Source of the DNA: Deferrisomatales bacterium
GTDB taxonomy: Bacteria; Desulfobacterota; Deferrisomatia; Deferrisomatales; JARGFW01
Direction: 5' to 3'
Assembly: GCA_029211085.1 (NCBI GenBank)
Contig: JARGFW010000025.1
Location: 1-36,399 of the forward strand
Length of the DNA: 36,399 nucleotides
The notes under the pieces were generated by a model. The model ran no database searches, was not told the DNA's origin, and was given only the letters and a program-made list of their open reading frames with translations. The translations under genes and the position numbers were made by a program. Positions 13,678 through 22,925 of the stretch are shown here, one piece after another. Numbering within the stretch: the stretch's first letter is position 1; each line of letters opens with the position of its first letter.

Positions 13678-14475
13678 TCAGTCGTGCTCTTCCCCCAGGT
13701 ATGCCTTGATCACGGCGGGGTTGTCGCGGATCTCCTGGGGGGTTCCCTCGGCGATCTTGCGGCCGTAGTCGACCACGAAGATGCGGTCGGAGAGGCTCAT
13801 CACCAGCTTCATGTCGTGCTCGATGAGCAGGATCGAGATGCCCTCTTCGTCGCGGATGCGGTTGATCAGCACCACCAGTTCCCGGGTCTCCTGGGGGTTC
13901 ATGCCGGCGGCGGGTTCGTCGAGCAGCAGCAGAAAGGGGTTGGTGGCCATGGCCCGGGCGATCTCCAACCGTCGCTGGGCGCCGTAGGGCAGGTTCTTGG
14001 CCAGTTCGTTGACGTGGGCCTCCAGCCCCACCTTTTGCAGCAGGCGGTAACTCTTCGCCACCGTGTCGCGCTCTTCGGCGCGGGTGCCGGGGCCGCGCAG
14101 CACAGCGCCGAGGATGCCTGCCCGGGTGCGGCAGTGACGGCCGATCATCACGTTTTCCAAAGCCGTCATGTTGGAGAACAGGCGGATGTTCTGGAAGGTG
14201 CGGGCCAGCCCCTGCTCGGTCACCTTGTTGGGTTTCAGGCCGTTGAGGCGTTTCTGCGGGCCCTGCGGAGGGAGTGCAAACACGTCGCCCTCGCTGGGGT
14301 TATAGATGCCGGTGATGCAGTTGAAGAACGTGGTCTTGCCGGCGCCGTTGGGCCCGATCAGCGCCGCAATCTCACCGCGTCGCACGTCCAGGTCCACCTC
14401 GTCGATGGCTCGCAGGCCGCCGAAGTTCATGCTCAGGGCGCGTACATCCAGTACGCAGTCGTTGTTGTCTGTCAT
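13678..14475 (-). CDS. livG: Branched-chain amino acid ABC transporter, ATPase LivG
   Basis: This is one of the two cytoplasmic ATPases that drive LivHM import of leucine, isoleucine and valine. Walker A is GPNGAGKTTFFN (about 41-52); the LivG-type insert LARTFQNIRLFSNMTALENV follows. The signature is degenerate (LPYGAQRRLEIARA instead of LSGGQ), as usual in LivG. Walker B is LLLLDEPAAGMNP, and the switch histidine lies in IEHDM. The ATG at 14475 is chosen; a TTG nine bases upstream (14484) is also open but overlaps the livM stop (14481-14483). This is the last gene of the livK-H-M-G set. Confidence 0.95.
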   Translation of the reverse strand: MTDNNDCVLDVRALSMNFGGLRAIDEVDLDVRRGEIAALIGPNGAGKTTFFNCITGIYNPSEGDVFALPPQGPQKRLNGLKPNKVTEQGLARTFQNIRLFSNMTALENVMIGRHCRTRAGILGAVLRGPGTRAEERDTVAKSYRLLQKVGLEAHVNELAKNLPYGAQRRLEIARAMATNPFLLLLDEPAAGMNPQETRELVVLINRIRDEEGISILLIEHDMKLVMSLSDRIFVVDYGRKIAEGTPQEIRDNPAVIKAYLGEEHD

Positions 14476-14480
14476 GGGTG

Positions 14481-15689
14481 TCAACGCTCACCCACGGCGT
14501 TATCCAGGCCGTGGAACTCGTAGCGGCGGCGCACGTTGGTGATGAGCCCCTGGGGCCGGAACACCATCATCAGCACCATGGTGGCGCCGAACACCAGCAT
14601 CCGGTACTCGGAGAACGCCCGCAGGTATTCGGGTAGCAGGATCAGGGCCAAGGCGCCCAGGATCACCCCGGTGATCGAGCCCATGCCGCCGAACACCACG
14701 ATAGAGAGGATGATGATGGACTCCCACAGGGTGAAACTGGCGGGGTTGATGAAGGTGGTCTTGGCGGCGAAGATCACCCCCACCATGCCGGCCCAGGTGG
14801 CTCCCAGGGCGAACGCGGCGAGCTTGGTTTTCATGCGGTCGATGCCCATCGCCTCGCAGGCGATATCGTCCTCCCGTAGCGCCACCCAGGAGCGCCCCAG
14901 TCGGGAGTTCTGCAGCCGGTTGACCACGAAGATGGTGAACAGCACCAGGCCGATCATCAGGTAGTACATGTACACGGTGGACTGTTGCAGGTCCAACTCC
15001 AGCCCGAACAGGCCCGGGCGGGGGATGTTGGCGATGCCGCTGGGCCCCTTGCTGAAGTCATTCCAGTTCTCCAAGACGAGGCGGATGATCTCGCCGAAAC
15101 CCAGGGTGACGATCGCCAGGTAGTCGCCGCGCAGGCGCAGTACCGGTATGCCCAGCAGGATGCCGAACCCGGCACCGATCGCCATGCCCACGGGGATTGC
15201 AGCCCAGAACCCCAAGCCGAAGTGCAGGTTGAGCAGCGCGTAGCTGTACGCACCCACCGCGTAGAACGCCACGTAGCCCAGATCCAGCAGCCCGGCCAGC
15301 CCCACCACGATGTTCAGGCCCAGGCCGAGCACCACGTAGATCAACGCGGTGATCATGATGTTGACCTGGTAGGAGCTGAACAGGTTGGGGAACACCCCGG
15401 CGAACAGGGCCACCCCGGCCAGCAGTGCCAGTTGTGCCCGCCGCTGTGCCAACAGTCGGTGGATGAAGGGGCGGTGTCCCTCGGCATCGTCCCCCCCTCC
15501 CTGCTCCTTGCGCTTGTGCATGTAGCGCCACAGGTACGACAGCACGAAACTGCCCGCGGCGATGTAGAGGACATTCATCCAGCGCCACTCAACCGTTTCT
15601 TCCACGGTGTTCACCCGGATGACCAGGATGGGGAAGGTGAGGAACGCAAACCAAAGGGCGATGAGCAGGGAGCGGCGGAACTCTTTCAT
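14481..15689 (-). CDS. livM: Branched-chain amino acid ABC transporter permease LivM
   Basis: This inner-membrane permease of 402 residues has many hydrophobic helices and the LivM signature region GLAGLLDLGYVAFYAVGAY. The cytoplasmic coupling segment RLRGDYLAIVTLGFGEIIR interacts with the ATPases, and GGMGSITGVILGA lies near the end. The N-terminus carries two extra hydrophobic segments and a charged loop (KRKEQGGGDDAEGH) before the conserved core, as in longer LivM proteins. The ATG at 15689 has GAGGGAAG eight bases upstream. It follows livH by 13 bases and meets livG with the stop and start six bases apart. Confidence 0.95.
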   Translation of the reverse strand: MKEFRRSLLIALWFAFLTFPILVIRVNTVEETVEWRWMNVLYIAAGSFVLSYLWRYMHKRKEQGGGDDAEGHRPFIHRLLAQRRAQLALLAGVALFAGVFPNLFSSYQVNIMITALIYVVLGLGLNIVVGLAGLLDLGYVAFYAVGAYSYALLNLHFGLGFWAAIPVGMAIGAGFGILLGIPVLRLRGDYLAIVTLGFGEIIRLVLENWNDFSKGPSGIANIPRPGLFGLELDLQQSTVYMYYLMIGLVLFTIFVVNRLQNSRLGRSWVALREDDIACEAMGIDRMKTKLAAFALGATWAGMVGVIFAAKTTFINPASFTLWESIIILSIVVFGGMGSITGVILGALALILLPEYLRAFSEYRMLVFGATMVLMMVFRPQGLITNVRRRYEFHGLDNAVGER

Positions 15690-15702
15690 GGCGTCGCTTC
15701 CC

Positions 15703-16605
15703 TCATACCTTCTGGGTAGTGGACCGGCCGAGGATGCCCTCGGGCCGGAAGATCAGGACGGCCACCAGCAACGCGAACGCAAACACGTCCTCGTAGTCGC
15801 TGGAGACGTAGCCGGTGGCAAAGCTCTCCACCAGACCCAGGAACAGGCCGCCCACAGCCGCGCCGGGGATGCTGCCGATGCCGCCGAGCACTGCCGCTGT
15901 GAATGCTTTGATTCCCGCGATGAAGCCGATGTAAAAGTTGATCTGTCCGATGTGGGAGGCGATCAGCACCCCGCCGATCGCCGCCAGGGCCGAGCCCACG
16001 ATGAACGTCACCGAGATTACCCGGTCCACGTCGATGCCCACCAGCATGGCCATGGTCTTGTCCTGGGCGGTGGCGCGCATGGCCTTGCCGATGCGGGTGT
16101 ACTTGATGAGCAGATTGAGAAGCACCATCACCACCGCTGCGGTGGCCACGATGAGCAACTCGGCCGAGCCGAAGATATGGGCCACCGGTTCCATGAACGC
16201 GAAGTCCGGGATCAGGGCGGGAAACGACACGAAGTCAGAGGTCTGGGCCAGCAGCACATAGTTCTGTAGGAAGATCGACATGCCGATGGCGCTGATCAGG
16301 GGCGACAACCGGGGAGCGTTGCGCAAGGGCTTGTAGGCGATCTTCTCCACCGTGTAGCCGTAGGCGGCCGAGTAGGTCACGGCGGCCACGGCGGCCAGGA
16401 TGAGCACCGCCAGTGCTGGCATCCCCTGCATGGTCAGCACGTTGGCCACGATCAACGCGGTGAACGCGCCGATCATGTAGATCTCACCATGGGCAAAGTT
16501 GATCAGTTGGATGATGCCGTACACCATCGTGTAGCCCAGGGCGATGAGGGCGTAGATGCTGCCGCGGGTCAAACCGCTGAGCAGGAGCTCGAAGAAGTAT
16601 TCCAT
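15703..16605 (-). CDS. livH: Branched-chain amino acid ABC transporter permease LivH
   Basis: The product of 300 residues is the second permease. Typical features are the N-terminal LTRGSIYALIALGYTMVYGI, INFAHGEIYMIGAF, RATAQDKTMAMLVGID (cytoplasmic coupling loop) and AAVLGGIGSIPGAAVGGLFLG. The ATG at 16605 (MEYFFELL) matches the family start; the frame is open further upstream but only with non-conserved Pro/Arg-rich sequence. A 12-bp hairpin separates it from livK. Confidence 0.95.
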   Translation of the reverse strand: MEYFFELLLSGLTRGSIYALIALGYTMVYGIIQLINFAHGEIYMIGAFTALIVANVLTMQGMPALAVLILAAVAAVTYSAAYGYTVEKIAYKPLRNAPRLSPLISAIGMSIFLQNYVLLAQTSDFVSFPALIPDFAFMEPVAHIFGSAELLIVATAAVVMVLLNLLIKYTRIGKAMRATAQDKTMAMLVGIDVDRVISVTFIVGSALAAIGGVLIASHIGQINFYIGFIAGIKAFTAAVLGGIGSIPGAAVGGLFLGLVESFATGYVSSDYEDVFAFALLVAVLIFRPEGILGRSTTQKV

Positions 16606-16665
16606 GTGGCGGATCGGCATCCTGTGGGGTGGCGGTGCGCGCGGCGCCCCGGGGAGAAAACGCAA

Positions 16666-16693
16666 CAGGGGAGGGGCCGTAGCCCCTCCCCTG
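16666..16693 (-). terminator. Hairpin between livK and livH (partial terminator / processing stem)
   Basis: CAGGGGAGGGGC (16666-16677) and GCCCCTCCCCTG (16682-16693) form a perfect 12-bp stem with a 4-base loop, 22 bases after the livK stop. On the transcribed strand it is followed by TTGCGTTTTC, a poor U tract. This fits an intra-operon structure that lets the binding-protein mRNA outnumber that of the membrane genes. Confidence 0.6.
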
Positions 16694-16714
16694 ACTTCCA
16701 TCTCAGTCGCGGTG

Positions 16715-17842
16715 CTACTTCACCTCGACGTACTTGCCGTCCTTCACCTGGTACATGGAGAAGCCCACACCCTTGGCGTCGCCCCTGGCGTCGAAGCTGA
16801 TCTTGCCCACCGGGGTATCCACCCACTCGCTGCGCAGGGCCTTCTCCATTGCCGCGTACTCGGTGGAGCCGGCCTTCTGGATGGCGTTGAGCAGGGCCGT
16901 GGTCGCGGCGTAGGCCTCTTTGTAGAACGCGCCGGGTTCTTCGCCGAAGGCATCCTGGTGCTTCTTCACCGCCATCTTGTACAGGGGCAGCTCCGAGGTA
17001 TCCATGGGGCCGCTGGCGTACACTCCCTCGGCGTACTCCTTGGCCACCTTGATGAAGGTGTCGTCCTTCACACCGTCGTCGGAGACGAAGGGAATCTCCA
17101 TGCGCTTCTTGCGCATCTGGGTGACGATCTTGGAGGCCTCCGGGTGGTAGCCGCCGTATAGCACCGCCTCGGCGCCGGACTGCTTGATCTTCGACACGAT
17201 CGCGGAGTAGTCCACCGCGCCGGGGGTGATGCCCTCGTAAAGCACCACCTCGGCACCGGCCATCTCCTCCAGGTACTTCTTGGCGAACTCGGCATAGCCT
17301 TTGCCGTAGTCACCCTTGTCGTGGATTACCGCCAGTTTCTTGGCACCCAGCTTGCCGGTGGCGAACTCCACCCCCAGCTTGGCCTGCATGTCGTCCGAGG
17401 CGATGGTGCGGTAGAAGTTGGGGTAGTCGCCGCTCTGGGTCAGGGCGGGGTTGGTGGCCGAGGGGGACATGACGATGATCTTGGCGTCGTTGTAGGTGCC
17501 CAGGGCGGCCTTGGTGGCGCCGCTGCAGATGTGCCCCAGTACCGCAACTACCCCGTCGGAGACCAACTTGGCCGCCGTGTTGGCCGCCACTTCGGGTTTG
17601 CACACGTCGTCTTCGACGAGCAACGCCACCTTCTTGCCCAGTACGCCGCCCTTGGCGTTGAGTTCGTCTACCACGAACTTGGCCGCCTTGGTGGCCGGGA
17701 TGCCGTAGGAAGCCAGATCGCCGCTGTGCGGACCGGCCACGCCCAGCTTGATGGTGTCAGCGGCGGTGGCCGCGCCGGCCCAGACCAGGCAACCAGCCGC
17801 CGCCAGGGAGAGTGCCCACTTCAGGGTTTGGGAACTGCGCAT
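16715..17842 (-). CDS. livK: Branched-chain amino acid-binding protein LivK (periplasmic)
   Basis: The 375-residue substrate-binding protein has a signal peptide (hydrophobic 10-27, cleavage at ATA-A near 28) and a type I periplasmic binding fold starting with IKLGVAGPHSGDLASYG. It contains AKLVSDGVVAVLGHICSGAT, as in leucine/isoleucine/valine-binding proteins. The ATG at 17842 is selected because AAGGAGGT lies eight bases upstream; longer in-frame starts would add unrelated residues. It has its own promoter, downstream of livF, and is followed by a strong hairpin. Confidence 0.95.
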   Translation of the reverse strand: MRSSQTLKWALSLAAAGCLVWAGAATAADTIKLGVAGPHSGDLASYGIPATKAAKFVVDELNAKGGVLGKKVALLVEDDVCKPEVAANTAAKLVSDGVVAVLGHICSGATKAALGTYNDAKIIVMSPSATNPALTQSGDYPNFYRTIASDDMQAKLGVEFATGKLGAKKLAVIHDKGDYGKGYAEFAKKYLEEMAGAEVVLYEGITPGAVDYSAIVSKIKQSGAEAVLYGGYHPEASKIVTQMRKKRMEIPFVSDDGVKDDTFIKVAKEYAEGVYASGPMDTSELPLYKMAVKKHQDAFGEEPGAFYKEAYAATTALLNAIQKAGSTEYAAMEKALRSEWVDTPVGKISFDARGDAKGVGFSMYQVKDGKYVEVK

Positions 17843-17880
17843 TGTGAACCTCCTTTTCATCTTCTCAGATGATGAGAGAC

Positions 17881-17897
17881 GCCGACCCGGGGTCGGC
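17881..17897 (-). promoter_or_regulatory. Leader hairpin of livK
   Basis: GCCGACC (17881-17887) and GGTCGGC (17891-17897) pair perfectly around CGG, near the predicted 5' end of the livK mRNA. It could stabilise the transcript; no attenuator peptide was seen. Confidence 0.35.
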
Positions 17898-17915
17898 ACG
17901 AATTCCAAGGTACAC

Positions 17916-17944
17916 GTTCTAGCAACAAGCGCGGCGGCCGTCAA
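17916..17944 (-). promoter_or_regulatory. Sigma70 promoter of livKHMG
   Basis: On the minus strand TTGACG (plus 17939-17944) is exactly 17 bases from TAGAAC (plus 17916-17921), 74 bases upstream of the livK ATG and just past the livF stop. Five of six and four of six matches to consensus make it one of the better promoters here. Confidence 0.6.
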
Positions 17945-17966
17945 CTCGTTGGTTGGTAGGCGTGCC

Positions 17967-18674
17967 TTATAGCCCGAGGTATGCCTTCTTCACGGCATCG
18001 TTGACCATGAGATTGGCAGCGGTGTCCTCCAGGGTGATCACCCCGTTCTCCATCACGTAGCCGCGGTGGGCGATGCGCAGCGCCAGGTTGGCGTTCTGCT
18101 CTACCAGGAAGATGGTGGTGTTCTCTTCGCGGTTGATGCGCTGGATCACCTGGAAGATTCGCTGCACGATCAGCGGTGCCAGGCCCAGGGACGGCTCGTC
18201 CAGGAGCAGCAGCTTGGGCCGCGCCATCAGGGCCCGGGAGATCGCCAGCATCTGCTGCTCCCCGCCGCTCAGGGTGCCGCCGGCCTGATTGCGCCGTTCC
18301 TGGAGGATCGGGAACAGGCCGAACACGTGGTCTAGGTCCTGCTTTATGCCGTCCTTGTCGCGGCGCAGGAACCCGCCCAGGTCCAGGTTCTCCAGCACGC
18401 TCAGGTGGGGAAATATGCGCCGCCCCTCGGGTACCTGGATCACACCCAAGCTGACGATGCGGTCCGGCGGCATACCTTGGATCGGGTCGCCGCAGAAGGT
18501 GATCGAACCGGCCTTGGGCGGCACGACCCCGGAGATCGACATCAGAGTGGTGGTCTTGCCGGCGCCGTTGGCGCCGATCAGCGAAATGATCTCCCCCTCG
18601 GCGACCCGCAGGGACACTCCCTTGAGGGCTTGGATGCCGCCGTAGTAGGTCTGGACGTTGCGAAGTTCTAGCAT
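17967..18674 (-). CDS. livF: Branched-chain amino acid ABC transporter, ATPase LivF
   Basis: The 235-residue ATPase starts MLELRNVQTYYGGIQALKGVSL. It has Walker A GANGAGKTTT, the LivF-type VPEGRRIFPHLSVLENL (Q-loop area), the signature LSGGEQQMLAISRALM, Walker B LLLLDEPSLGLAP and the switch VEQNA. It works with LivG, LivH, LivM and LivK. The ATG at 18674 is the family start; the open frame further upstream is Pro-rich and not conserved. It sits upstream of livK on the same strand, an order different from the common livKHMGF. Confidence 0.95.
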   Translation of the reverse strand: MLELRNVQTYYGGIQALKGVSLRVAEGEIISLIGANGAGKTTTLMSISGVVPPKAGSITFCGDPIQGMPPDRIVSLGVIQVPEGRRIFPHLSVLENLDLGGFLRRDKDGIKQDLDHVFGLFPILQERRNQAGGTLSGGEQQMLAISRALMARPKLLLLDEPSLGLAPLIVQRIFQVIQRINREENTTIFLVEQNANLALRIAHRGYVMENGVITLEDTAANLMVNDAVKKAYLGL

Positions 18675-18804
18675 GGCACGCTGGGTTGGGGCGCCGCCTG
18701 GGCGGCCGCCGGTGAGCGGTTGGCGAATCTTAGGGGGCCCTGGGGCACACGTCAAGCGGCAGAGAAAGCCTCTGTGTTCACGGGGTTTGCCTGGTCCCAC
18801 CGTG

Positions 18805-18834
18805 TTGACCGGCGTCGAGTGGGCTCCCTATAAT
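18805..18834 (+). promoter_or_regulatory. Strong sigma70 promoter of the regulator-tgt pair
   Basis: TTGACC (18805-18810) is 18 bases from a perfect TATAAT (18829-18834), 40 bases upstream of the regulator ATG. This is the closest match to consensus in the window. A housekeeping promoter fits tgt, the second gene of the unit. Confidence 0.75.
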
Positions 18835-18874: not shown

Positions 18875-20440
18875 ATGGATGGTTCGCCCGCAGTTCGCGA
18901 GCTGCGCGCCCTGTACCGGGTGAGCCAGTGCGTGCACGCAACCCTCGACCTGCCTGCCGCCGTGCGCTCTGCCCTCGGCGTGTTGGCGGAGGAGCTTGGG
19001 ATGCAGCGTGGCGCCTTGGCCCTGGTGGACCCCGACAGCGGGGAGTTGGTGATCGAGGTGGCCCACGGGTTGAGCCCGGCGGAGATCCGGCGTGGTCGCT
19101 ACCGCTCCGGTGAGGGGGTGATGGGCCGGGTGCTGGCCACCGGGGAGCCGATGGCGGTGCCGTGCATAGGCGCCGAGCCCCTGTTTCTGGATCGCACCGG
19201 CGCCCGCCGACGCCTCGATCGCTCCCGGGTGGCGTTTTTGTGCGTGCCGGTGCGCTGGGGCAGCGACATCGTCGGAGTGCTCAGCGCCGACCGGCTCACT
19301 TTGGGGCCGGCGGACCTGGAAGAAGACCTGCGTCTGCTCACCCTGGTGGCCGACGTGATCGCCCAAGCCGTGGGGGTGCAGCGCCGGGTCCGGGGGGAAC
19401 GCAGCGGACTGGAGCGCGAGAACCGCGAGCTGCGCCAACAGCTGCGCGAGCCCTTCGCCACCGCCGGGGTGGTGGGCGCCAGCCGCGGCATGGCCGCGGT
19501 GCGGGGGCAGATCGAGTTGGCAGCGCGCAGCAGCGCCCCGGTGCTGGTGAGCGGTGAGGAGGGCAGCGGCCGGCGCACGGTGGCCCGGGCCATCCACCTC
19601 CTCTCCGAGCGCGCCGAGCGGCCCCTGTTGCGGGTACCCTGTGGTGGTGCCTCGGCACCCGTGGTGGCCGGGGCCCTGTTCGGGGATCCAGACGCTCTCG
19701 GCGGCGCCCCCGGCGCCCTGGTTGAGGCCGGTGGCGGCTGCGTGCTGCTGGAGGCGGTGGAGCGGCTTCCCGCCGACAGTCAGGAGCGCCTGTTGCCTGT
19801 GCTGCAGGAGGGGTGTTTCCCCCGTGCTGGCGAGAGGGTGCCGGTGCGCTGTCGCGTCCTGGCCTACACCGCCGTGGATCTGGCCGGAGAGGTGCGCGCC
19901 GGGCGCTTCGACGAGATGCTGTATCACAGGCTCAACGCCGTTCCCCTGCACTTGCCCCCCCTGCGCCGGCGGCGGGGAGATATTCCCCTGTTGGTGTCCC
20001 ACTTCCTGGACCAACTGGCGCGACGCGACGGGACATCGGCGCTGCGCTGGCCCCAGGCCTGCACCGAACTGCTGCAGCGTTGGAACTGGCCGGGCAACGT
20101 CGGCGAACTGCGGCAGGTGGTGGAGCAGGCGGCGCGCGCCAGCAGCGGGGGGAGCGTGGCAGCCGCGGACCTGCCAGCCTCGCTGCGGGGAAAAACGGGT
20201 GCTGCGCCCGGGGCGTTGGCGGCGGGCGCCTTGGAGGCGGCCACCCGGGACGCCGCCGAAGAACTGCTCCGCGAGTACCCCGAGGGAAGGGTGCACCGAG
20301 CGGTGCTCGACCGGGTGGAACGGGCCCTGCTGGAACTGGCTTTGGAGCGCAGCGGCGGGGTGAAACTCGCCGCTGCCAGGCTGCTGGGCATCAACCGCAA
20401 CACCCTCTACCACAAACTTGCCTTGATCGAGGAACCATGA
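18875..20440 (+). CDS. Degenerate NtrC/NifA-like regulator (GAF, AAA+, Fis HTH)
   Basis: The product has 521 residues: a GAF domain (about 8-168), a short charged helix (about 176-192), an AAA+ domain (about 198-420) and a C-terminal Fis-type helix-turn-helix (about 470-518, LAAARLLGINRNTLYHKL). It keeps late AAA+ features such as YHRLNAVPLHLPPLRRRRGDI and WPGNVGELRQV. However, Walker A reads GEEGSGRRT (227-235) with the essential Lys replaced by Arg. Walker B reads CVLLEAVE (289-296) without the Asp-Glu pair. The GAFTGA loop that contacts sigma54 is deleted between ALFG (267-270) and AGGG. It therefore probably cannot activate sigma54 polymerase. Its stop overlaps the tgt start (ATGA). Confidence 0.88.
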   Translation: MDGSPAVRELRALYRVSQCVHATLDLPAAVRSALGVLAEELGMQRGALALVDPDSGELVIEVAHGLSPAEIRRGRYRSGEGVMGRVLATGEPMAVPCIGAEPLFLDRTGARRRLDRSRVAFLCVPVRWGSDIVGVLSADRLTLGPADLEEDLRLLTLVADVIAQAVGVQRRVRGERSGLERENRELRQQLREPFATAGVVGASRGMAAVRGQIELAARSSAPVLVSGEEGSGRRTVARAIHLLSERAERPLLRVPCGGASAPVVAGALFGDPDALGGAPGALVEAGGGCVLLEAVERLPADSQERLLPVLQEGCFPRAGERVPVRCRVLAYTAVDLAGEVRAGRFDEMLYHRLNAVPLHLPPLRRRRGDIPLLVSHFLDQLARRDGTSALRWPQACTELLQRWNWPGNVGELRQVVEQAARASSGGSVAAADLPASLRGKTGAAPGALAAGALEAATRDAAEELLREYPEGRVHRAVLDRVERALLELALERSGGVKLAAARLLGINRNTLYHKLALIEEP

Positions 20441-21633
20441 GCGCCCAGCGATCCCACGCCGTCACGTTTGAACTGGAGCACACCGACAGCGGGTGCCGCG
20501 CCCGGGCCGGCACCCTGCAGACCCCCCACGGTACGGTGCCGACCCCACTGTTCATGCCCGTGGGCACCCAGGCGGCGTTGAAGACCCTGCACCCGGACCA
20601 GGTGGCCGCCGCGGGAGCCCGCATCGTGCTGGCCAACACCTACCACCTGTTTTTGCAGCCCGGCTCGGCGGTCGTCAAGCGCTGCGGTGGCCTGCACGGG
20701 TTCATGGGGTGGGACGGTCCGATCCTCACCGACTCCGGCGGGTTTCAGGTGTTCAGTCTGCCCGGTCGGGAGATTGTCGAGGAGGGGGTGCGCTTTGCCT
20801 TCGAGAAGGGGGGCCAGGCCACCTTCCTGGGCCCCGAGGAGTCCATCGGCGCCCAGAACGACCTGGGTGCCGACATCATCATGGCGTTCGACGAGTGCAT
20901 TCCGTTCCCGGCCGAGCGCGACTACGCCGCCCGCTCGGTGGAACGTACCCTGCGCTGGATGGAACGCTGCGTCGCAGCCCACGCCCGGCCCCAAGACCAG
21001 GCCCTGTTCGGCATCGTCCAGGGTTCGGTGTTCCCCGAACTCCGGGAGCACTGCGCACGGGAGTTGGCGCGGCTGGATCTGCCGGGTTACGCCGTGGGCG
21101 GGGTCAGCGTCGGCGAAGGCCACGACTTGATGCGGGAGGCGGTGGAGTATAGCGAGCCGTTCCTGCCCGTCGACAAACCCCGCTACCTGATGGGGGTGGG
21201 CAAACCGGAAGACATCCTGGAGGCCATCGAGCGAGGCATGGACCTGTTCGACTGCATCATTCCCACCAAGTTCGGGCGCGGCGGGACCCTGTTCACCGGT
21301 AGCGGCAAGCTGCGCATCCAACGCAAGGAGTACCGCAAGGATCGCTACCCCATCGACACCAACTGTCAGTGTCCCACCTGCCGGCGCTTCTCCCGGGCCT
21401 ACCTGCACCATCTGTTCACGGTGGACGAGCCCCTGGGCAAGGCCCTGGCTTCGGCCCACAACATCCACTTCTATATGACCCTGGTGGCGCGTGCCCGCCG
21501 GGCCATCGTCGCCAATCGCTTCCCGGCGTTCAAGCGGGAGTTCTATGCGGAGTTCTTCGGCGATGCTCTGGGACCGGAGGCCCCCCAGGGGAGAAAACGA
21601 AACCGCCGGAAACGCCCAGAAAATCCAGAGTGA
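20437..21633 (+). CDS. tgt: tRNA-guanine transglycosylase
   Basis: Tgt swaps guanine 34 of tRNAs with GUN anticodons for preQ1, the key step of queuosine modification. The 398-residue product has the active-site Asp in LTDSGGFQVFSL (D99), the nucleophile-region DLFDCIIPT, GGVSVGEGHD, and a zinc site C310, C312, C315, H341 (CQCPTC motif). The C-terminus has a basic tail (RGRKRNRRKR in part: GRKRNRRKR). The ATG overlaps the stop of the preceding regulator by four bases, so translation is coupled. A probable queD begins at 36357, another queuosine gene. Confidence 0.97.
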   Translation: MSAQRSHAVTFELEHTDSGCRARAGTLQTPHGTVPTPLFMPVGTQAALKTLHPDQVAAAGARIVLANTYHLFLQPGSAVVKRCGGLHGFMGWDGPILTDSGGFQVFSLPGREIVEEGVRFAFEKGGQATFLGPEESIGAQNDLGADIIMAFDECIPFPAERDYAARSVERTLRWMERCVAAHARPQDQALFGIVQGSVFPELREHCARELARLDLPGYAVGGVSVGEGHDLMREAVEYSEPFLPVDKPRYLMGVGKPEDILEAIERGMDLFDCIIPTKFGRGGTLFTGSGKLRIQRKEYRKDRYPIDTNCQCPTCRRFSRAYLHHLFTVDEPLGKALASAHNIHFYMTLVARARRAIVANRFPAFKREFYAEFFGDALGPEAPQGRKRNRRKRPENPE

Positions 21634-21746: not shown

Positions 21747-22925
21747 TTACCCGCAGGGTCTGTGGACAGCGGCTCGGGGGGAGGCTAGGGCCGGCGACAC
21801 CTCGATCTCGGTGAGATGCGAGGTATCCCGGATGCGCACCGCCCGCGGCGCGGCTCGTGCCTCCGCCGGCAGGTCCGCCAGCGCGGCGGCTACCGCCCGC
21901 TCCTCGTCGGCTGCCACCGGGGGCAGGACCGCCGCCTCGGCGAAACCGGTGGTGCGGGCGTTGGCGCGGGTGACTTTCCAATCCACCGCCGCCGCCAGGC
22001 TCTCGGTCACCCAATCGGCGTAGCCCACTCCGTTGGCGTTGCCGTGGCTGGCCGGGCTGAGTGCCAGGCACACCACCCGGCGGATGCGCGGGGGTTCGTC
22101 ACACCCCGGGAAGCGGCGGTCCAGGCCGACCACGTTCAGGTCCATGCCGGTTCCGGAGATGTCCTTGCCGATCTCCCGCACCACCAGCAGATCCAACGTC
22201 TCCCACGGTAGTCGCGGCAGCAGGGCCCGGGCCCTGTGCAGCAAGTTGGATTCCCGGTCCAGCCAGGTGGGGGGCGTGAGCACGGCGAGTTCGGCTACTC
22301 CGTGGTAGGCGTTTTCCACCAGGGCCACCCCGCAGGGCACCCGCCCGCTGCCCAACCAGAACCGGGTTACCGCGGGGATCGCCCGCGCCAGACCGGCGCG
22401 GTGGCACGCCGCCGCGCTGCGCCCCTTGCCCAGTCCCACCGCCAGCAACTTGGAAGGCCCGCTCTCCACCGTTCCCCGAAAAGCCGTGTGGGGCTTGACC
22501 CGGTTGATCGGTACCAACGCGTCTGCCTCCCACGCCGCGGCGTCGCACCACACCGGAGAGCCGTCGGCGGCGGTTCCCGCCCGCACCACCGTGTCGCGGC
22601 TAACCACCGGCACACCCAAACGATCCCCGGTGACTCCCAAGTCGGCGAGCACCCGGGCCTGGGCCGCGGCGGTGCCCCCGCCGTGGCTGCCCATTGCCGG
22701 AACCACCTGCACCACCGCACCGGCGGCTCGCAGGGTGCGCACCGTCACCTCCACCCAGCGGGCGATACCGGTGATGCCGCGGCTGCCCACCGCCACTGCC
22801 ACCCGACGGCCGTGCACCGGCCGGGCAGCCAGGGCAGCGGCCAGCCCGTCCTCCAGGACCTTCTCCGGGTCGCGGAGCTCCGACCGGGGAAAGGAGAGAT
22901 GCAGGGGTTGCCAGAGGATCGTCAC
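21747..22925 (-). CDS. LarA-like (DUF2088) nickel-dependent racemase family protein
   Basis: The 392-residue protein matches the lactate racemase LarA superfamily: MGSHGGGT (H81), RVKPHTAFRG (H146), SGPSKLLAVGLGKG (K159) and a following His (H175). These are the relative positions of the catalytic and nickel-pincer-binding residues of LarA. The C-terminal half has KDISGTGMD and SHGNANGVGYAD. LarA itself racemises lactate using a nickel-pincer cofactor made by LarB, LarC and LarE; none of these is beside it. Substrate unknown: related 2-hydroxyacid racemases or epimerases are possible. The start is GTG at 22925, with AAGGAA eight bases upstream. Confidence 0.8.
   Translation of the reverse strand: MTILWQPLHLSFPRSELRDPEKVLEDGLAAALAARPVHGRRVAVAVGSRGITGIARWVEVTVRTLRAAGAVVQVVPAMGSHGGGTAAAQARVLADLGVTGDRLGVPVVSRDTVVRAGTAADGSPVWCDAAAWEADALVPINRVKPHTAFRGTVESGPSKLLAVGLGKGRSAAACHRAGLARAIPAVTRFWLGSGRVPCGVALVENAYHGVAELAVLTPPTWLDRESNLLHRARALLPRLPWETLDLLVVREIGKDISGTGMDLNVVGLDRRFPGCDEPPRIRRVVCLALSPASHGNANGVGYADWVTESLAAAVDWKVTRANARTTGFAEAAVLPPVAADEERAVAAALADLPAEARAAPRAVRIRDTSHLTEIEVSPALASPRAAVHRPCG

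Follow-up and report, generated by a model that had tools for sequence, protein, structure and literature searches.

A degenerate sigma54-activator-like regulator linked to a second tgt gene in the Deferrisomatales, with a putative role at sigma70 promoters

The gene directly upstream of tgt in the window (the whole analysed stretch of 36,399 nucleotides, contig JARGFW010000025.1 of a Deferrisomatales genome), here termed REG, encodes a GAF-AAA+-Fis protein of the sigma54-activator type in which the polymerase-contacting loop and the ATPase residues have been lost. With moderate confidence, we infer that the degenerate REG binds DNA and regulates sigma70 promoters independently of ATP and under the control of its GAF domain, a proposal that covers its activity, its DNA binding and its targets alike. 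The ATP-using and polymerase-contacting parts have gone while the gene stays in place and under selection, which makes a sensor-controlled DNA-binding role the most likely one. The features of REG are listed below, with the families of the order labelled f1 (that of the window) to f4.

18875..20440, + strand: REG, degenerate GAF-AAA+ (sigma54-type)-Fis regulator, 521 aa
18947..19372, + strand: GAF sensor domain, residues 25–166 (Pfam PF01590; 64–74% identity to f2 and f4 orthologues)
19553..19576, + strand: Walker A remnant GEEGSGRR, residues 227–234, with Lys changed to Arg233 (alignment; canonical GESGTGKE)
19682..19714, + strand: L1 loop remnant GDPDALGGAPG, residues 270–280, in place of the GAFTGA loop (alignment; low-confidence loop in the model)
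19739..19765, + strand: Walker B remnant CVLLEAVER, residues 289–297, with Asp changed to Glu293 and Glu to Ala294 (alignment; canonical TIFLDEIG)
20306..20419, + strand: Fis-type HTH, residues 478–515, with a recognition region (LLGINRNTLY) identical to that of the intact orthologue in genome G005 (PF02954, 47.2 bits; alignment)

The REG reading frame begins with ATG and contains no internal stops at the coordinates given. Pfam assigned GAF (25–166), Sigma54_activat (200–358), AAA lid (364–442) and Fis-type HTH (478–515) domains, in agreement with the complete GAF-AAA+-Fis plan of the original prediction, and homology to the sigma54 activators is evident from the PF00158 score of 106.5 bits (cut-off 20.2). 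Alignment bore out the three losses first read from this gene: Arg233 stands in place of the Walker A lysine, Walker B has become Leu-Leu-Glu-Ala (CVLLEAVE aligned against TIFLDEIG), and GAFTGA is deleted, with no shifted intact copy. The corresponding region reads F269-GDPDALGGAPGA, is around five residues shorter and lacks Phe-Thr whichever alignment is used. Further changes were found in sensor I, where AATN has become AYTA (330–333) with loss of the asparagine; in the FREDLYYRLN segment, now RFDEMLYHRLN, which has lost the first arginine and, by alignment, retains that of LYHRLN; and in WPGNVR (405–412), whose arginine is replaced by glycine.

In the predicted structure the AAA+ fold is kept, with core pLDDT values mostly above 90 and a low-confidence loop (271–280) at the GAFTGA site, and structure comparison matched the AAA+ model to the cores of FleQ, NtrC1 and VpsR (7v2b). 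REG thus has the fold and homology of a sigma54-dependent enhancer-binding protein (bEBP), while the GAFTGA element, the Walker A Lys and the Walker B Asp-Glu that a functional one carries are missing. Judged from these residues, sigma54 activation through ATP hydrolysis is predicted, with fair confidence, to have been lost.

The losses stand out against the other sigma54-type AAA+ proteins of the same genome. Of the 29 other PF00158 matches, 27 keep the Walker A Lys together with an identifiable GAFTGA element (counted as GAFTGA, GSFTGA, GSFSGA or GAFTDA), and REG has the lowest full-length score (109.5 bits vs 140–250), which argues that its motif losses are not due to chance. Two other proteins of this genome were also seen to be altered. 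A REC-AAA+ response regulator (L130, G000:C27:11300-12600) has GALPDA at the GAFTGA site, LEEI at Walker B, no sensor I and an intact Walker A, which makes it another candidate for an activator uncoupled from sigma54. The other (L132, G000:C198:6600-7600), a short AAA+ protein of the sigma54 type that is likewise degenerate, keeps Walker A as GEPGAGKS, with GAL--A at the GAFTGA site, LEGV at Walker B and loss of sensor I.

The window genome also encodes sigma54 and has more than 25 intact paralogues, among them a close GAF-containing bEBP (L041, 42% identity to REG), and the inactive AAA+ subunit might mix with these and poison or tune sigma54 activation, not acting at promoters of its own. 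Such a hetero-oligomer would draw on the retained AAA+ fold, lid and LYHRLN arginine, yet the interface residues are partly gone, the first arginine of FREDLYYRLN being absent both from the window protein and from that of G006. Moreover, a subunit of this kind needs no DNA-binding domain, yet that domain and its recognition helix are conserved, and we consider this explanation quite unlikely.

Orthologues were compared across 12 genomes of the order, mostly draft assemblies and equal to the full return of the class search, with ten loci compared; the window genome is 96.9% complete and 8.5% contaminated. REG lies immediately 5′ of tgt in 10 of the 12, namely the window, eight genomes from which both genes were fetched (L010–L017) and G009, in which REG is cut by a contig end (L069) and is counted as tgt-linked. 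At least nine of the 11 other genomes therefore carry a tgt-linked orthologue. In G008 a REG fragment runs into the contig end (L025). The remaining genome, G001 (f2, 95% complete), has neither a regulator-linked tgt nor a close REG, reflecting either loss or an assembly gap. Outside the order, none of the top REG matches adjoins tgt, and a further genome scan gave no REG orthologues beyond the genomes of this set.

The AAA+ domain is canonical in five complete orthologues, from f2 (G004) and f3 (G005, G002, G007 and G011). GAFTGA is absent from all REG proteins of f1 (window) and f4 (G003, G010, G008 and G006), a degenerate set of five that includes the window and the G008 fragment; the four genomes of this second family thus show losses comparable to those of the window. 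Sensor I is lost in all three f4 proteins whose sequence reaches it. G003, G010 and G008 have an arginine in Walker A and ‘KD’ in Walker B, and G006 keeps the Walker A Lys and Walker B Asp and has lost the Walker B Glu. In the GAF tree the degenerate proteins group together as a single clade (support 99/98), and in the RpoB species tree their genomes, together with G001, form a clade (starred) for which a single change suffices. Both trees fit one loss of GAFTGA, which would have occurred in the common ancestor of f1 and f4. The boundaries of the deletion are unequal among the window, G003 and G006, so the simplest reading is a single first loss after which each lineage eroded independently; independent losses would be a less simple one.

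The coupling to tgt that was originally proposed for the disarmed protein holds across the order, but the losses are confined to f1 and f4. The AAA+ domains of the tgt-linked orthologues in these other two families, f2 and f3, are canonical, so the coupling is older than the loss of the motifs.

Selection was assessed in the genus g4 pair G003/G010, a genus other than that of the window. In the degenerate AAA+ core this pair shows 3 nonsynonymous changes, against 11.9 predicted under neutrality, and 14 synonymous ones; the corresponding counts are 2 and 13 for the GAF domain, 4 and 15 for the HTH region and 22 and 63 for the whole gene (60.2 nonsynonymous predicted under neutrality; NG86 omega 0.13), with a looser lid (omega 0.32). 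Across families, the intact orthologues are more alike in the AAA domain (74–80% identity) than in GAF (53–62%), whereas the degenerate orthologues compared across genera are less alike in AAA (47–53%) than in GAF (64–74%), GAF being the most conserved REG domain within the degenerate clade. This inversion of domain rates, taken with the selection seen in genus g4, indicates that the former constraint on the AAA+ domain has gone and that the protein is nevertheless maintained. Neither stop codons nor frameshifts were found in degenerate REG across the five genomes. The original view that the gene is not obviously decaying is upheld by these results and by the syntenic orthologues across the order, and REG as a pseudogene was rejected on the purifying selection in genus g4 and the five open frames.

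A milder version of decay, in which relaxed REG persists chiefly because it opens an operon whose REG and tgt cistrons are translationally coupled, would accord with the faster divergence of AAA+ and lid than of GAF in the degenerate clade, and with the four-base tgt overlap in all four of its complete operons. The low nonsynonymous counts of genus g4, the uninterrupted frames and the level of GAF identity across genera and families speak against it; this reading is already disfavoured for genus g4 and appears distinctly improbable overall.

20437..21633, + strand: tgt (TGT1), second TGT paralogue (TIGR00430, 488.6 bits; alignment)
21747..22925, − strand: LarA-like nickel-pincer isomerase, NPN group 22 (NF052515, 400.4 bits, cut-off 400)

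The four-base overlap with tgt noted at the outset is an ATGA at 20437–20440. It recurs at the same length in 4/4 complete operons of the degenerate clade, and in the intact operons the tgt start lies between −1 and +283. Most genomes of the order contain another tgt, around 50% identical to TGT1, which in the window genome belongs to a queA-tgt-yajC-secD arrangement. The REG-adjacent gene is hence a second paralogue, distinct from the housekeeping gene of the queA-tgt-yajC arrangement, a point on which the original prediction is corrected. REG-linked tgt genes share 71–77% identity within the order; the relatives that come next (54–59%) were found in seven of about 190 other genomes of the phylum, none beside REG. 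In the alignment, TGT1 retains the catalytic Asp, the Zn-ligand and the GGVSVG motif, with a preQ1-type pocket (PMC11570991). The valine of GGVSVG is the criterion that separates queuine-type TGT (PMC11570991), and with this valine retained a queuine-type assignment is not supported. An apparent in-frame queA-tgt fusion was also rejected, the junction being an assembly gap of Ns. The LarA-like gene is convergent with tgt and adjoins it in G003, G005, G006 and G010 as well.

13678..18674, − strand: livF-livK-livH-livM-livG, branched-chain amino-acid-type ABC transporter operon, divergent from REG (Pfam/NCBIfam)
18805..18834, + strand: sigma70-like promoter of REG-tgt, TTGACC-18-TATAAT, with the −35 at 18805
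18727..18755, − strand: divergent sigma70-like promoter of the liv operon, TTGACG-17-TAAGAT

A Liv-type ABC operon is divergent from REG in nine of the ten loci and is a third conserved neighbour, which the original prediction had not included. The liv genes of genus g4 (L058, L060 and L064) are distant (livK around 35% identical; order K-H-M-G-F vs F-K-H-M-G) and occupy the same place beside REG, which suggests replacement in situ or rearrangement. The REG-side promoter is the top consensus match of the window, with one mismatch against three for the runner-up, as the original prediction had ranked it. TTGACC-N17/18-TATAAT or TATACT was found on the REG side in 7/10 orthologue loci, from both clades, and the same arrangement of a sigma70-like promoter on the liv side in 9/10, where shuffled sequences give an expected 0–0.3 per region. 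The presence of these back-to-back promoters in the intact clade as well indicates that they did not originate with the loss of the motifs.

By eye, sigma54 −24/−12 sites in the REG-liv intergenic regions amounted to weak candidates that share no position across lineages, and no shared dyad operator in these regions exceeded shuffled expectation. A search of the window for preQ1 or other riboswitches gave no Rfam match. In two f3 genomes (G007 and G002; L062 and L061) a strong dyad lies shortly upstream of REG (GGGCGTGTGA-N8-TCACACGCCC and GGCGTGTGA-N7-TCACGCGCC), which the other families do not have; it is possibly an operator or a hairpin.

With no conserved operator between the genes and a synteny older than the motif loss, REG might regulate distant sigma70 promoters only, the arrangement with liv and tgt being inherited from the intact ancestor. 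The tight REG-tgt and divergent liv arrangement nonetheless persists through four families, and even the far more distant liv operon of genus g4, with its other gene order, keeps the same place, which makes exclusively distant targets unlikely.

The favoured course of events, regulation that includes local promoters, would be as follows. The starting point was probably a NifA-like GAF-containing bEBP, of which the f2 and f3 orthologues keep every canonical sigma54-activator motif. The ancestor of f1 and f4 would then have begun to lose the sigma54-contacting loop and the ATPase residues, while the GAF sensor, the Fis-type DNA-binding domain and an AAA+ scaffold that still folds were retained. 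The degenerate REG would act at sigma70 promoters as a repressor or modulator controlled by a GAF ligand and independent of ATP hydrolysis. The roles suggested in the original prediction, a sigma70 repressor or activator or a ligand-sensing scaffold, are likewise putative. Its targets probably include the back-to-back promoters of REG-tgt and the divergent liv operon, which are the most economical putative targets; that dyad operators do not rise above shuffled expectation counts against these local targets. It is a very doubtful extension that the GAF regulator ties a queuosine-pathway metabolite or a Liv substrate to expression of a dedicated second TGT through sigma70 promoters, creating a regulated second route of wobble modification.

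The locus offers a natural experiment, with one gene at one place whose sigma54 AAA+ domain is canonical in two families and dismantled in two related ones. It would allow testing of how an ATP-driven activator becomes a plain DNA-binding regulator, and of whether the leftover AAA+ fold is a mere oligomerisation scaffold. The second tgt, moreover, is apparently order-specific and has its own regulator and a transporter neighbour; further families of queuosine-precursor transporters are thought to be still undiscovered (PMC11130926).

Among known systems, REG shares the GAF-AAA+-Fis plan of NifA and other GAF-type enhancer-binding proteins. Its top curated model is TIGR01817 (NifA; 289.8 bits, under the cut-off of 528.85) and its best PDB sequence match is 9qq6, NifA of A. 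vinelandii; unlike NifA, REG is without the ATPase and sigma54-contact motifs. VpsR of Vibrio cholerae, which has a receiver-like N-terminus and c-di-GMP as ligand, resembles REG as a bEBP fold without GAFTGA and is among its structural matches, but the gene neighbourhoods are unrelated. VpsR regulates sigma70 promoters and reportedly does not require ATP (PMC10274813). The GAFTGA-less NtrC proteins of Caulobacter and Rhodobacter capsulatus have a lineage-specific deletion within the AAA+ L1 loop that takes out GAFTGA, and act at sigma70 promoters; ATP binding and hydrolysis are reportedly needed by the former and ATP binding is essential in the latter (PMC10274813). These are response regulators with REC domains, whereas the REG sensor is GAF and REG additionally lacks Walker A, Walker B, sensor I and the WPGNVR arginine. 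TyrR, DhaR, HupR and YplP are likewise descendants of sigma54 activators with defective GAFTGA, the first three shown to be sigma70-dependent (PMC3162934), but with other sensor domains and other targets; no report of any of them beside tgt was found in the literature searched. With intact f2 and f3 orthologues at the same locus and the HTH retained, the degenerate REG proteins fit descent from a bEBP with loss of GAFTGA. REG differs from these precedents in how completely the motifs are lost, in its GAF sensor and in having intact orthologues preserved at the same locus.
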